A stretch of 64,000 nucleotides of DNA from Oscillatoriales cyanobacterium PMM_0080 (GTDB lineage Bacteria; Cyanobacteriota; Cyanobacteriia; Cyanobacteriales; Microcoleaceae): assembly GCA_949127775.1 (NCBI GenBank), contig CASBQF010000149.1, positions 1 to 64,000 on the forward strand. The letters run 5' to 3'. Below, one piece after another: positions 36,701 to 49,472 of the stretch. Every line of letters begins with the position of its first letter. Position 1 is the first letter of the stretch. Both the position numbers and the translations under genes were made by a program. The notes below the pieces were generated by a model. That model was not told the DNA's origin and did not search any database. It saw only the letters and a program-made list of their open reading frames with translations.

Positions 36701-39631
36701 CTAACTTATTGGCTTTTGATATTTACTCAACAAAGCAGCAAATCGCTTGTAATCCAAAGGCTTCCTCAAATATTCTGCCGCTCCCAATTCCAAACCCTGA
36801 CTTTTGTCATCCAAAAAAGTCAACATAATCACCGGAATATTCGTCAAATCCGGATCGGCTTTCAACGCCGACAGCACCGCCCAGCCGTCCATACTCGGCA
36901 TCATCACGTCCAGAGTAATCGCATCTGGGCGCAACTCCTTAGCCAACAAAAGCCCCGCTTCACCGCTAGCCGACGATCGCACCCGAAATCCCTGTTTCGA
37001 CAAGCAGCGGGTAATTAAATCTCGCGCGTCGGGATCGTCGTCAATCACCAGCACAGTAGCAGCATTAGGCAACTCCAGCGGTTGCGATCGCACTTCTATG
37101 GGCTTCTTCACTTTGATCGGGACTACAATTGTATCCAAGTTCGAGGAAGCATCGGCTGGTATTTGCGCGATCGCCCGATCGCCCTCCACTTGTTTCTCGC
37201 TTTTAACCGCAAGCGGCAACCGGATCGTAAAATTAGAACCGCAATCAAACTTGCTCTCAACCGTAATATCCCCGCCCATCATCTGGCAAAACTTCCGGCT
37301 AATTGTCAGCCCCAAACCGGTGCCACCGTACCTGCGGGTAGTGGAATCGTCCGCTTGGGTGAAAGCTCCAAACAGCCTCGACACCTGATCGTCAGTCATC
37401 CCAATGCCCGTATCAGTGACTTGAAACACGAGCATCGCAGGCTTTTCACACTGAGAAATCGCTGTCAAGAGTTCCTCAGAATTGTCCACCGACAAAACTT
37501 CCCCTGCTTCCTGCCAAACATTAATTGTAATTTTCCCTCGATCGGTAAACTTAGCAGCATTGCTCGCCAAATTCAACAGCGCTTGTCGCAACTTCGACGA
37601 ATCCGAGTATATCGTGCCAATATTGTCGCAATTGATGCTCAAACTATTACCGTTTTTCCCCACCAGCGGTTGCACCGTAGTCACCACCTGCTGGACCAAA
37701 CTCAATACATCGAAACTCTCCAAGTAAAGAGTCATCTTTCCTGCTTCAATTTTAGAAATATCCAGGATGTCACTAATAATATTTAGCAACTGCTTCCCGG
37801 CAATATTAATACTTGCCAAATCCATCACAAACTCTTCTTCGCCCAGTTCCTGAGCCTCTTCTTGTAGCAGCTCACTGTACCCAATAATCGCATTCAGGGG
37901 CGTGCGCAACTCGTGAGTCATATTTGCCAAAAAAGTGCTTTTCGCCCGGTTAGCCGCTTCCGCAGCGTTTTTCGCGACTTCCAATTCGATCGATCGCTCC
38001 TCTAGCTGCCGCTGTCGCACTTCCAAACCTTTGAGCAAACTGCTAATTTGCTGAGCCATTGTATTAAGAGTAGAAGATAGCACCCCGATCGCATCATTAG
38101 ACACCACAGGCGATCGAGCCATCAAATCACCGCTCGCCATCTGTTGAGCCGTTTCGCGCAGTAACCCAAGATTCCGAATAATCGCCGACACCGACACCAA
38201 ACCAACAATTCCGGCGATCGAACTCAAAACCCAAGCAGCCATCAACCAACGCTGAGTGCGGCTCGCCGCAAAGAGAGTCTGATCCACCAGCACCCCCATT
38301 GCTTCATTAGGAATCCTCTGGGCCAGCACCGAGGCTGAGTCTATTGCCAGCAAATAGTTCTGCATCTCCACAGAACCCATCCACCCGACTCCCACCGCCA
38401 TCCAAGTTATCAGTACCAATATCACAAATAGCCCGATCAAAGAAGCCCGACTTCCCAGAGAAATCTGCCTCGGAGCAAGTGCCGCCGCCCAAGGATAGGT
38501 TTTGAGAAAAGGATCGGGCTGCACTGGTGCGCCCGAATTCCAAATCTCGTCAATTTGACCATCCGATCGCACCTTACCAATTCGCACAGTTTTCCAAGTA
38601 TGCTGAGTTTGGGCATCTATTTTCACCTTGCCCGATGGCGCGACAAACTCCATATTTTTAGCAGCCGCCCTGACTTTAACCACATCTGTCGAACCAGCTT
38701 TTTCTACTGCTTGCTTCCACAGATAAACCCCCAAATAAGCCGCTTCTATCGGGTCATCCGTGACTCTATTTTCCCCATATTTAGCTTTATAAGCCTTGAC
38801 AAATTTCCGATTTTCTGCTGAATCCACCGTTTGAAAATAGTTCCAAACCACCAAATGTCCAGCAATATTGGACGGCCCGATCGCCCGCACTTCCTCTTCT
38901 GCTACGCTCACCGACATCACCGGCAAATCCTCCGGCTTCAAGCCAGCTTCCCGCAACTTTTGGAAAAAAGCCACATTGGTGTCACCGTTGAGAGTATTGA
39001 GAATAGCATCCGGTTTCACTGCTAAGATATCTGCGATCGCCTCATCCACATCCCTCGAACCAAGCGGCAGATACACTTCCCCCGCCAACTCTCCCCCGAG
39101 TGCCGCCAGTTGAGCCTTCACAATCAGATTTGCCGTGCGGGGAAAAATATAATCCGAACCCAACAGAAAAATTTTCCGCTTCCCCTGCGCCAGCAAATAA
39201 TTCACCCCAGGCACAATCTGTTGATTCGGAGCAGCACCAGTGTAGATAATATTCGGACACTGTTCTAGCCCTTCATACTGCACCGGATAAAACAGCAACC
39301 CGTTGCTCTGCTCAAAAGCCGGCAGTACAGCCTTGCGACTAGCCGAAGTCCAACAGCCAAATACCACCGCTACCTGCGCTTCTAAGAGCAATTGCTTAGC
39401 TTTTTGAGCAAAAATCTGCAAATCGCTGGCTCCATCTTCTATCAACGCTTTCAATGGGCGTCCGAGCACTCCTCCTGCCGCGTTAATTTCCTCAACCGCC
39501 AACAGCGTCGCATCTTTAACAGAAATTTCGCTGATGGACATCGTGCCTGTCAGCGAATGCAACACGCCTATTTCGATCGGCTCACGAGTCTGGGCTGCTG
39601 CTTCGAGGGGGTTACTGGTGCTTGCTCCCAT
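36701..39631 (-). CDS. Hybrid histidine kinase with UrtA-like (urea/amide-binding) sensor domain
   Basis: A 976-residue protein. Residues about 18-385 match the UrtA/AmiC class of periplasmic binding proteins closely ([48 protein letters not shown]). Then a membrane helix (about 397-418), a short external loop, a second helix (about 465-488) with HAMP, a coiled linker, the HisKA domain with phospho-His573 in [14 protein letters not shown], the HATPase ([31 protein letters not shown]), and a C-terminal receiver with Asp908 in [13 protein letters not shown]. It probably senses urea or short amides and signals to unlinked regulators. No signal peptide is visible, although the sensor should be outside; an in-frame stop lies three codons upstream. 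Confidence 0.88.
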
Positions 39632-46293: not shown

Positions 46294-46312
46294 ACAGGTT
46301 TTCAAACTCAGT

Positions 46313-46612
46313 ATTCGTAGGGACACAGCGCCATGCTGTGTCCTCTTTTTATGTCAAATTCAATATTCGCAGGGAAACGGCACTGCTGTGTCCTCTTTTT
46401 ATGTCAAATTCAATATTCGTAGGGAAACAGCACTGCTGTGTCCTCTTTTTTGGTCAAATTCAATATTCGTAGGGAAACAGCACTGCTGTGTCCTCTTTTT
46501 TGGTCAAATTCAATATTCGTAGGGACACAGCGCCATGCTGTGTCCTCTTTTTATGTCAAATTCAATATTCGTAGGGAAACAGCACTGCTGTGTCCTCTTT
46601 TTATGTCAACAA
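46313..46612. repeat. Six tandem ~50-bp hairpin units
   Basis: Units start at 46313, 46365, 46415, 46465, 46515 and 46567, each with ATTCGTAGGGA(A/C)AC, a palindromic centre (AGCACTGCTGT or AGCGCCATGCTGTG), TCCTCTTTTT and GTCAAATTCAAT. Two centre variants alternate along the array. No spacers or cas genes, so this is not a CRISPR. It lies between convergent genes and may stop transcription from either side. Confidence 0.9.
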
Positions 46613-46636: not shown

Positions 46637-49312
46637 CTAAAATCGATTTACCGGGGCAAAATTGTAACCATCAGCCGATCGAGTGTCCGGTACGACTTGC
46701 AAAAGAACTATATTGCTGTTACGATCGCCACTTGACAAAAATCTAATCTCCCCAGTAGCGCCACTCACCTTAAAATCGGAGCCAGCCAAAGTAGAGGCCA
46801 ACATCACTCGCCCGGCTTCACCGCTATTCGGAGCAATTTTGCCGATCGACCTTCCCAGCAGCAAAACCTGCACCGCATCATAACTCATCGCCGTCCGCCA
46901 GTTAACATCAATTCCCCACAAATTCTTAGATAATTCTACAAACTTTTGATTTTTACTATCAGCAAAATGCCAAGGGACAGAAATTACTGTCCCGTTCAAA
47001 TCCGCTCCACCTTGTTTTAATAAATCCGTATTATAGAGAGCATCGCCACCAATTATTGGCAAACGTTTTTGATTGTTTCGAGCAATTTCTAAAGATAAAT
47101 TTAAAGTTTCTGAATCTGGCAGTAACACCAACACATCTGCTTCAATCCGCTCCAGGTGCGCTGTAGCATTTGGCTCAGACAAATCTACTTCTTTAACAAC
47201 TTGACCACCTTCTAAAACTAGAGTAGTCGAAAAAGCTGTTTGCAAAGATTTACTATAAGAACTTTTGGAATTATAAAAAATCGCAGCCGTGCTTTTTTTC
47301 ATACCAGTTAACATATAGCGAGCTAAAGCCGTACCTGTAAATTGGTCGCTTGGTATCGTCCGAAACAAATAGTTCACGCCGTCAGCGCGCCTCGGAGCCG
47401 TTGCTAATTCAATGCTCGTGCTCGTAGGTGCGATCGCCACCATTTGACTTTCACTGTAAATTGGAGCAACGGCGATCGAAGTTTTGCTGCTACCGTGACC
47501 AACAACCGCTAAAATATTAACATCTTTTATGAGACTTTGAGCAATTGCCTGCGCCCGATTTTGATCATTACCATCATCAGCAATTACCACCTTTAAAGGC
47601 ACTCCTGCCTTAATTGCTTCATCTTGAGCTTGAGCGATCCCGCGCAATATTTCTGCGGCGGCGCTGGGATTGTCGCCAATCGGAACTACCGCCGCAATTT
47701 TTAGAGACTGTGCATTGCTGAGACGAGCATTGTTGAGATAAATCAAACTTTCTGGATCGTTACGATCGGCTTTCAAAACCGCTTCTAGTTTATTTGCAGC
47801 CGTTTTAAAATCTTTTGCCAGTATAGCCCGAACTCCTGCTTGCTTATCAGCAGTTGCGATGTTACCAAACAAAAGGCGATCGCCTTCACTTATATAATTA
47901 CTGACATCTAAATTTGGCAGAGGCGATCCAGTTTGCCGGTTGGGAACTTGTAGAACATCGGTATTCAGTTTAGGCTCTGGAAAATTTACAGCAGCTTTCA
48001 TAAAACTTGTCAACTGATTTCTAAATAAAAAAGAGGTGATACCTAAAGTAATTAAGGCAATCGACAATATATAAATAGTCCAATTCTTTTTGCTGATAAT
48101 TACAGGAATTCTTGGCTGATGGCTGGTAGATAAAACAGGAGTTATTGGTTCCTCCAAAGCTGCCAGCATTTCTTGGGCAGTTACGAAGCGACTTAGCGGA
48201 TGAAACCTAATTGCCTTATCTAGAATAGCCGCAAATCTGACACTCACCTTGACATCGTGATTACGCCAAACAATCTCCCTTGTTTGGGAATCAGTTTCTA
48301 ACTCCCGCGGCCACTTTCCCGTCAACAAATAGATTGCAGTCAATCCCAAACTGTACAAATCGCTAGAATACTCTGGTCTTCCGGCTGCTTGTTCCGGCGA
48401 CATGAATTGTGGCGTTCCCATTGAGGCAGTTAGATCGCTATCCCACGTATTTACTACCTGACTCATTGTTTCCTTAACCACGCCGAAATCAATCAGCACT
48501 GGTTCATCGTCACACTTGCGTATAAGAACATTTTGTGGCTTGATATCTCGGTGAATAATCTGTTTGCTATGAATATATTCCAAAACTGGCAGCAGACTTA
48601 CAAGCAGTTTTTTGACATCTTTTTCACTCATTTTGCCAGCAGATTTTACTCGATCGCTAAGTGTTTCTCCGTCTATCCATTCTTGAGCCAGGAAAAACAA
48701 ACCATCTTCTTCAAAATGACCATAAAGTTGGGGGATTTGAGAATGTCCCTCGCCCAATTTTTCCAAAACAGCGGCTTCCTGACCAAAACGTTCTCGCACG
48801 CTTTGGTCAATTTTAGGATTTTTGGTGTGAGGTTTTAGCTGTTTAATTACGCAGTGGCGGTGGGAAGGCATTTGGATATCTTCTGCCAGCAAAGTCAAGC
48901 CAAAACCACCTTCTCCCAGTTTTTTGAACACCCGGTAACGATTGTTCAAAAGTCGATCGGGTTCTGTTTGTTCCGGCGACTGCAAAATCTCCTCGTTGAT
49001 TTGGACTTGGCTTTCTACTGCTAGAATGCCATATTTGCCGCTCCCGTTTGGTTCGGCATGAATTAGCATGGATTCGCCGCCGTTGTCTTTGAATTTTCTC
49101 CTGAGTTCAAAAATGCGATCGACGATTATTCTATGTTCGTCAACTGTGGGGGGACGCTTGTATAGCGCATTAAAAATCGCTGCTGGTTCGACATATTTGC
49201 CGTAGTGTTTGCTCAACAGCAGTAGCACGATATATTCTTCTTTGTTTAGGTTTACGCACTCTGAACCCAGCTTGACGGAGCGGGTTTTAGTGTGGATGCT
49301 TAAGTTGTCCAT
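46637..49312 (-). CDS. Winged-helix / Ser-Thr kinase / periplasmic binding fusion
   Basis: An 891-residue protein with an unusual order of domains. Residues 1-100: winged helix of the OmpR output type (VNLNKEEYIVLLLLSKHYGK, HRIIVDRIFELRRKF, GSGKYGIL). Residues about 125-395: complete Ser/Thr protein kinase (Gly loop GEGGFG 133-138, Lys157 in VIKQL, HRDIKPQN 254-261, DFG 275-277, SPEQAAGRPEYSSDLYSLG). One membrane helix (NWTIYILSIALITLGITSF, about 408-427). A short TPR-like helical linker, then residues about 540-880: ABC-type amino-acid/ANF-receptor-like binding domain (AAVVPIGDNPSAAAEILRG, AVVGHGSSKTSIAVAPIY, TTIPSDQFTGTALA). It could bind a small ligand outside and act on kinase or DNA inside. 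Confidence 0.88.
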   Translation of the reverse strand: MDNLSIHTKTRSVKLGSECVNLNKEEYIVLLLLSKHYGKYVEPAAIFNALYKRPPTVDEHRIIVDRIFELRRKFKDNGGESMLIHAEPNGSGKYGILAVESQVQINEEILQSPEQTEPDRLLNNRYRVFKKLGEGGFGLTLLAEDIQMPSHRHCVIKQLKPHTKNPKIDQSVRERFGQEAAVLEKLGEGHSQIPQLYGHFEEDGLFFLAQEWIDGETLSDRVKSAGKMSEKDVKKLLVSLLPVLEYIHSKQIIHRDIKPQNVLIRKCDDEPVLIDFGVVKETMSQVVNTWDSDLTASMGTPQFMSPEQAAGRPEYSSDLYSLGLTAIYLLTGKWPRELETDSQTREIVWRNHDVKVSVRFAAILDKAIRFHPLSRFVTAQEMLAALEEPITPVLSTSHQPRIPVIISKKNWTIYILSIALITLGITSFLFRNQLTSFMKAAVNFPEPKLNTDVLQVPNRQTGSPLPNLDVSNYISEGDRLLFGNIATADKQAGVRAILAKDFKTAANKLEAVLKADRNDPESLIYLNNARLSNAQSLKIAAVVPIGDNPSAAAEILRGIAQAQDEAIKAGVPLKVVIADDGNDQNRAQAIAQSLIKDVNILAVVGHGSSKTSIAVAPIYSESQMVAIAPTSTSIELATAPRRADGVNYLFRTIPSDQFTGTALARYMLTGMKKSTAAIFYNSKSSYSKSLQTAFSTTLVLEGGQVVKEVDLSEPNATAHLERIEADVLVLLPDSETLNLSLEIARNNQKRLPIIGGDALYNTDLLKQGGADLNGTVISVPWHFADSKNQKFVELSKNLWGIDVNWRTAMSYDAVQVLLLGRSIGKIAPNSGEAGRVMLASTLAGSDFKVSGATGEIRFLSSGDRNSNIVLLQVVPDTRSADGYNFAPVNRF

Positions 49313-49472
49313 GAAGAAAGAAGTTCGGCAACGGATTTTTTAACGGATTTAACGGATGTATAGTGGAGTTTGCATCTAAATTAAAAAACATGAACTTTTA
49401 GTTTTTTAATTTAAAAATTCCAAGGTCAAAAGTTTCTTTAACGTTATCGTCAAACAGTGGTAATTGCCAAGG

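Follow-up and report, generated by a model that had tools for sequence, protein, structure and literature searches.

The window analysed here is a 64,000-nucleotide stretch of DNA (positions 1 to 64,000 of contig CASBQF010000149.1, assembly GCA_949127775.1) from Oscillatoriales cyanobacterium PMM_0080. On its minus strand, at 46637..49312, lies an ATG-initiated frame of 891 residues, free of internal stops, that encodes a winged helix, a Ser/Thr kinase, a membrane helix, a helical linker and a periplasmic binding domain in a single chain (Table 1). A preliminary description of the locus had proposed this frame, with the order winged helix, kinase, membrane helix and binding domain; both are borne out by the open reading frame, by Pfam, by hydropathy and by orthologs. 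Because the start and the whole length of the chain are shared by the orthologs, whereas the DNA ahead of the gene aligns poorly at 12 loci, the start codon is supported. A chance frame is ruled out by the 12 orthologs and by their ratios of nonsynonymous to synonymous substitution rates (dN/dS), given below.

Table 1. Parts of the receptor gene in the window and, by locus, sampled cyanobacterial chains that carry the same kind of sensor (aa, residues of the encoded protein)
Feature	Window position or loci	Strand	Basis
Complete gene (891 aa), from winged-helix head to ligand-binding domain	46637..49312	-	
OmpR/PhoB-type winged-helix head (predicted), aa 1-98	49019..49312	-	Profile, model, fold search
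Helix 3 of winged helix (recognition-helix position), aa 57-73	49094..49144	-	DSSP of model and residue comparison
Variable linker between head and kinase, aa 99-119	48956..49018	-	Mean identity 0.63, dN/dS 0.38
Hanks-type Ser/Thr kinase, aa 120-390	48143..48955	-	Pfam and conserved motifs
Single transmembrane helix, aa 411-430	48023..48082	-	Hydropathy
Helical, TPR-like linker, predicted outside membrane, aa 469-535	47708..47908	-	Three helices, block pLDDT 44-77, low-confidence model
Peripla_BP_6 / ANF-receptor ligand-binding domain, aa 536-891	46640..47707	-	Pfam, profile search
CHAT, TPR-like linker, Peripla_BP_6 sensor	L112, L114, L117, L118, L146, L149, L153, L158, L166		
Caspase, TPR-like linker, Peripla_BP_6 sensor	L144, L145, L147, L119		
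AAA/STAND-like, TPR-like linker, Peripla_BP_6 sensor	L138, L151, L152, L155-L157, L159-L162, L164, L169		

In the window protein, Pfam places Pkinase at residues 126–351 (expectation value (E) 7e-39) and Peripla_BP_6 at residues 550–859 (E 1.7e-23; ANF_receptor, E 9e-16), the latter being the external ligand-binding domain of the earlier proposal. The membrane helix is indeed single: there is one hydropathy peak (19-residue window at residue 412, mean 2.09), and the next highest value elsewhere is 1.19. With kinase, membrane helix and Peripla_BP/ANF domain all in one chain, the protein is a kinase/periplasmic-binding-domain receptor; no HisKA, HATPase or receiver domain, as expected of a two-component hybrid kinase, matched it in Pfam at a threshold of E 10. 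The domain order and the single helix suggest that head and kinase are cytoplasmic and that the binding domain lies outside. As to the linker, the Pfam scan gave no TPR match in the window protein itself, and a weak TPR_1 match (E 0.0019) appeared only in one relative, L143.

By their usual names, the kinase motifs are the Gly loop (GEGGFG), Lys157, Glu179, HRD (254–256), Asn261, DFG (275–277) and SPE (305–307). The chain has the Pkinase domain, catalytic Lys, HRD, DFG and APE-like motif of a Hanks-type Ser/Thr kinase, and the kinase is complete, as had been claimed. The Gly loop, Lys157, Glu179, HRD and Asn261 are invariant in 12 aligned chains, and the Asp of DFG is present in 11 of them.

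By profile, the solved relatives of the outer domain include 3td9 (E 1.3e-18), 4mlc/4q6b, 3ip5–3ipc and 1z15, and most are named as amino-acid-binding proteins. Ser609, Thr632, Tyr686 and Asp757 are invariant among the aligned chains and align with residues of 3ip5/3ipc, a series that we take to be Atu2422; those residues are presumably the equivalents of LivJ Ser79, Thr102, Tyr150 and Glu226, which we understand to be the positions that bind the amino-acid backbone in LivJ and likewise in Atu2422. Near the ligand site, 3ip5 (Phe) and 3ipc (Ala) differ at one position only, presumably residue 77; the window chain has Gly607 there, and this may make space for a bulkier side chain. Judging by these alignments, the ligand would most likely be an α-amino acid or a close analogue. 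That the external domain might be degenerate and ligand-free, a possibility raised in the preliminary description, finds no support in the invariant residues and amino-acid-binding relatives, as far as sequence can tell.

The case for an OmpR/PhoB-type winged-helix fold in the head is well supported for a prediction. Trans_reg_C scores 30.0 bits, over its cut-off, in the genome scan, and the NCBIfam model for the cyanobacterial regulator RpaB matches residues 2–87 with its terminal part (E 1e-6), far below that model's own cut-off. A profile built from 13 heads and run against the PDB picks up the DNA-binding domains of RstA (E 5.8e-5), PcoR, CadC (E 0.007) and ArlR. The AlphaFold2 model of the head, built on 12 close sequences, has a mean predicted local distance difference test score (pLDDT) of 71.8, with about 90 over residues 41–70 and less than 50 at residues 1–8, and the five models span 43 to 72. 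Its element order (two strands, three helices, two strands) is that of the OmpR/PhoB winged helix, with an N-terminal sheet, three helices and a C-terminal hairpin. All 50 Foldseek rows listed for this model are regulators of OmpR/PhoB/ToxR/CadC type, or DNA-binding domains of such regulators (best E 1.6e-3), and the top VIA-align match is RstA (Z 11.4, root-mean-square deviation 2.8, 89 residues aligned). The N-terminal domain, proposed earlier to be a winged helix, has thus survived checking by the 13-head profile, AlphaFold2, Foldseek and VIA-align.

Besides the window's genome, 28 genomes of the genus were searched (59 genomes in all, the window's own included), and 12 of them carry the head at 72–95% identity, or 13 of 29 when the window's genome is counted. 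Outside the genus, weak head matches (E 2e-5 to 6e-4) occurred in 3 of 30 genomes, in frames of 234, 255 and 511 residues, of which the 255- and 511-residue ones start like response regulators. A phylum scan of 386 genomes, with seven of the window's genus among those listed, returned the head at E 1e-67 or better in four, all of the same genus, and matches of 1e-7 to 9e-7 in eight more, in regulator-sized frames; two head peptides scanned across an 84,980-species collection hit 11 loci, which appear to be 11 of the 12 same-genus orthologs. Among the genomes searched, the head is restricted to one genus. Ten of the 12 extracted orthologs are complete frames of about 890–900 residues, one (G027) is cut by a contig end, and in one (G018) an in-frame stop ahead of the membrane helix divides the chain into 401 and 492 residues. 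Full-chain identity to the window protein is 71–95% (11 others), far beyond chance. No headless ortholog was seen in the genus at a threshold of E 1e-60: genomes without the head hold binding-domain relatives at no more than 46% identity. Nor were there, among the matches listed, other kinase-linked winged helices of receptor size in the genus.

Across 11 sequences (55 pairs), median dN/dS is 0.23 for the head, 0.11 for the kinase, 0.21 for the linker helices, 0.17 for the binding domain and 0.65 for the membrane-helix region. The head is under purifying selection, and 62 of 112 columns are invariant across 13 heads. These two figures make a functionless head, left behind passively by a gene fusion, very improbable, even though confinement of the head to 13 of 29 genomes of a single genus is what such a remnant would look like. 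An origin as a recent copy of a response regulator is not visible either: a 15-regulator profile gives the heads 28–40 bits, as against 71–143 for regulators. As a separate observation, the median synonymous rate (dS) among orthologs is 0.38 for the head (residues 1–98), 0.49 for the binding domain (residues 536–880) and 0.92 for the kinase (residues 120–390); recombination or extra constraint could explain the lower values of the first two.

Our reading of this anatomy, to which we give somewhat less than an even chance, is that of a ligand-gated, single-pass receptor Ser/Thr kinase that controls, in cis, a head added to its own chain. The periplasmic flytrap would bind a small ligand and close; closure would be relayed by the helical linker and then by the membrane helix, so as to bring kinase domains together, and these would be activated by trans-autophosphorylation. 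The module that this genus would have added is the winged-helix head; placed about 20 residues away, it would be the nearest substrate or regulated partner of the kinase: the active kinase would phosphorylate the tethered head along with other targets, and the head's grip on its own target, whether DNA or protein, would shift with the state of the kinase. Topology, ligand, dimerisation, cis-phosphorylation and the target of the head, that is, each step beyond the anatomy, are ones that we infer. We liken phosphorylation of the head to two precedents: Stk1 phosphorylates GraR at Thr128 and Thr130, which a model puts in the N-terminal sheet of the OmpR-type domain, and so makes DNA binding stronger, and PknH phosphorylates EmbR, the N-terminus of which is an OmpR-type domain (both as described in PMC4601284). 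In our heads, Thr8 and Thr10 are invariant and stand just N-terminal to the first modelled strand. A more specific form of the proposal, in which one membrane chain is both receptor kinase and DNA-binding transcription factor and the kinase switches its own promoter-binding head, much as if PknH and EmbR had been fused and placed under a flytrap gated by an amino acid, seems to us rather unlikely.

Several observations weigh against the cis-controlled receptor kinase, and we collect them here. In the Pfam scan of the whole protein, the Trans_reg_C match (residues 19–86, E 1.6e-5) is weak, its 25.3 bits falling under the 26.2-bit cut-off; the 13-head profile also picks up one non-regulator, MJ0882 (E 0.084); and Foldseek of the head model gave nothing at E 0.001 or better. 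The AlphaFold2 model of the outer domain (pLDDT 44) was used solely as a hint of linker helices. One ortholog (L046, the same as L094, in genome G014) has YFG in place of DFG with the rest of the chain kept, and its kinase is probably inactive. The 230 base pairs (bp) ahead of the gene match poorly when 12 loci are aligned, and contain no autoregulatory element common to all. A direct repeat of ATCCGTT lies 24–45 bp 5' of the start codon in 4 of 12 loci (the window, at 49330–49357, and L086, L087 and L094), and shuffles of the window gave no chance matches to this pattern; because the genome holds 141 matches, versus 0 for the reversed control, we regard it as a dispersed short repeat family and dismiss it as a sign of autoregulation.

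The remaining contrary points concern the positions that contact DNA, for which we compared 12 heads with 15 response regulators (12 from the window's genome and three that neighbour orthologs). In 12 of 12 heads, the helix-2 Arg of the regulators (11/15) is Pro43, their Trp (15/15) is Tyr51, the Val before the wing turn (14/15) is Glu87 and the wing Arg (10/15) is Pro88. The wing of the heads is one residue longer than that of the regulators, so the wing columns depend on the alignment; VRGxGY of the regulators corresponds to EPNGSGKYG in the window head. The position of RstA Arg207, where an R207A mutation abolished DNA binding (PMC4117788), is Glu69 in 11 heads and Gln in one, and is Arg in just 4 of the 15 regulators. 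Canonical DNA contacts of the head would appear, from this comparison, to be partly lost. Because several OmpR-family contact positions are replaced in the 12 heads, we put the likelihood that the head truly binds DNA at a little under one half. The earlier notion of a DNA-binding-like head is therefore upheld for the winged-helix fold, by profile, model and fold search, and only in part for its contact positions.

The replaced positions are themselves invariant, or nearly so, in the 12 heads, and the head as a whole is under purifying selection, which speaks for a protein-docking or autoinhibitory module that does without DNA binding and whose role would be to choose substrates for the kinase, to dimerise the receptor or to keep the kinase blocked as long as ligand is absent. 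A possible partner is at hand in 3 of 12 orthologs (L091, L093 and L096, in G020, G009 and G007), in which genes for a response regulator and a histidine kinase, paired on the strand of the receptor gene, immediately precede it (the pair was confirmed by Pfam in L091). Against such a module stand the basic residues that the heads have kept or added, namely Lys35, Lys39, Lys52, Arg53, Arg66 (11/12), Arg or Lys71, Lys73, Lys75 and Lys93, together with counts of charged residues that are similar to those of five regulators. All 12 heads have Arg or Lys where LRxK has its Arg, and the wing Tyr is kept, given the one-residue longer wing. Moreover, work on CadC found specificity residues to vary from one family member to another (PMC5430869). 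On balance we see a docking or autoinhibitory head as possible, at about one chance in three.

The domain order itself (N-terminal winged helix, one membrane helix, periplasmic sensor) invites another explanation, namely that the protein is a membrane-tethered transcription factor in the style of ToxR and CadC with an inserted kinase, in which the head would grip promoters at the membrane and be switched by ligand-driven phosphorylation. CadC and ToxR are both among the fold matches of the head, and CadC is among its profile matches. Arg50, Trp58, Arg76, Thr92 and Tyr98 of CadC have been called highly conserved contacts (PMC5430869); on our own mapping, seven of the 12 heads have Arg and five have Lys at Arg76, Thr92 is Ala, Thr or Ser, and Tyr98 is retained once the longer wing is taken into account, with Trp58 replaced by Tyr and Arg50 by Pro. 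The loss of both the helix-2 and the wing Arg from every head, and the lack of a DNA element common to the upstream regions of all 12 loci, render this ToxR/CadC-style factor unlikely.

The sensor, in contrast to the head, is found on many effectors. We sampled 11 long-frame relatives of the outer domain and then 39 with frames of more than 700 residues from those listed, with at most four candidates scored per genome and one frame that starts near a contig end left out; 38 of the 39 were scanned. According to Pfam, the first 11 comprise five kinases, four CHAT proteins, one caspase with nSTAND1 and WD40 (L119) and one chain with no Pfam effector (L109); the 38 contain Pkinase in 17, CHAT in five and Peptidase_C14 in three, with the overlapping families AAA_22 in 11, AAA_16 in 10 and AAA_35 in eight. 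Local prototypes divide the second set into 17 kinases, 12 AAA/STAND-like chains, six CHAT and three caspases. Kinases thus occur in 22 of the 50 sampled cyanobacterial sensor chains, and the rest are mostly CHAT proteases, caspases and AAA/STAND-like NTPases. Ahead of the binding domain, 35 of 38 chains show a hydropathy peak of at least 1.6; two others reach 1.29 and 1.39, and L143, where the cut was placed after the first of two binding domains, reaches 0.68. The plan of effector, helix, TPR-like linker and flytrap is, on these predictions, widespread. Neither the head profile nor the response-regulator profile matched any of the 50 sampled sensor loci at E 10, and within this sample the winged-helix head appears peculiar to the receptor family described here.

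In two trees (short searches with Shimodaira–Hasegawa-like approximate likelihood ratio support; seven orthologs, two window copies and identical rows left out), the five rows of the head-bearing family group together on a stem of 0.67 and fall outside the clades to which most other fusions belong. Its separateness in both trees disfavours descent from other kinase/binding-domain fusions; a separate assembly of this family is favoured, not proven. The chains that join the sensor to CHAT, caspase or AAA/STAND-like domains (Table 1) are candidate ligand-gated receptors of cell-death type; among the matches listed from open-licence PMC papers, CHAT or STAND joined to a Peripla_BP_6/ANF sensor was not found in print. 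Two large chains also came to our attention: L119:2418-8099 (minus strand, 1894 residues) is a giant combination of caspase, nSTAND1, WD40 and Peripla_BP_6, and L133 is a 3065-residue frame that by eye starts like a caspase and has its sensor near the C-terminal end.

The location of the gene is not fixed, and its neighbours name no pathway. The window and seven other loci, 8 of 13 in all, have an alpha/beta hydrolase gene immediately upstream in the same orientation; further upstream in several loci are genes that we labelled by eye as agmatinase-like, thioredoxin-like and molybdate-transport; G027 and G015 have differing neighbours. Directly downstream of the gene is a tandem array (window 46302–46609) of a 50-bp (or 102-bp) unit in about six copies, with 91% matches. 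The window contains a second binding-domain receptor (36701–39631, minus strand, 976 residues) with Peripla_BP_5 (E 4e-155), HAMP, HisKA, HATPase and receiver domains; by eye it has no signal or membrane helix ahead of the binding domain, and there is an in-frame stop just upstream. Elsewhere in the window's genome (L051, G000:C124:21156-24046), neighbouring kinase and binding-domain frames overlap, like a split receptor.

To our knowledge, the signals sensed by bacterial receptor kinases, and their targets, are mostly unknown. Here one protein offers both a sensor for a class of ligands that can be screened and, beside the kinase, a candidate output module, so that both ends are testable. The occurrence of this sensor on kinases, CHAT proteases, caspases and AAA/STAND-like NTPases suggests a modular coupling of extracellular small molecules to signalling, which possibly extends to cell-death-type effectors in cyanobacteria.

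The preliminary description knew of no system with this layout, and for the kinase and sensor that view does not hold: a kinase with an ANF receptor domain was reported in Nostoc sp. PCC 7120 (Krupa and Srinivasan 2005, PMC1262709), and ANF is among the domains added to cyanobacterial kinases (Zhang 2007, PMC2176072). Like the window protein, the Nostoc chain unites a Ser/Thr kinase with a receptor domain of the branched-chain-amino-acid type; unlike it, no winged-helix head is mentioned in the relevant passages of the two papers, nor is a winged helix one of the 14 added domain types named in the second (PMC1262709, PMC2176072). A Streptomyces coelicolor kinase with a Glu/Gln solute-binding domain, and Mycobacterium tuberculosis PknG, the gene of which adjoins glnH, likewise wire or link an amino-acid-binding protein to a Ser/Thr kinase, with a different kind of solute-binding domain and with the winged helix unmentioned in the passages concerned (PMC1262709). 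In a metacaspase and ANF-receptor protein of Nostoc punctiforme the kind of sensor is alike, and a caspase stands where the window protein has its kinase (PMC2853523). Nothing about these domains was found in PMC10651672. What is left of the claim to novelty is the winged-helix addition, of which we found no example on a receptor kinase among the open-licence PMC papers that our searches listed: the kinase-flytrap receptor has been known in kind since 2005 and 2007, and the head appears to be new.

In ToxR/CadC-like proteins no enzyme stands between head and membrane helix; in the window protein one does. The periplasmic domains of CadC and ToxR also differ in kind from that of the window protein. 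Common to all is an N-terminal OmpR-type winged helix followed by one membrane helix and a periplasmic sensor, but the head of CadC and ToxR joins the membrane helix without a kinase (PMC5430869), whereas here the kinase (residues 120–390) lies between the two. In PknH with EmbR, and in Stk1 with GraR, a Ser/Thr kinase acts on an OmpR-type DNA-binding protein, but the two are separate proteins (PMC4601284), and the window protein holds both in one chain.

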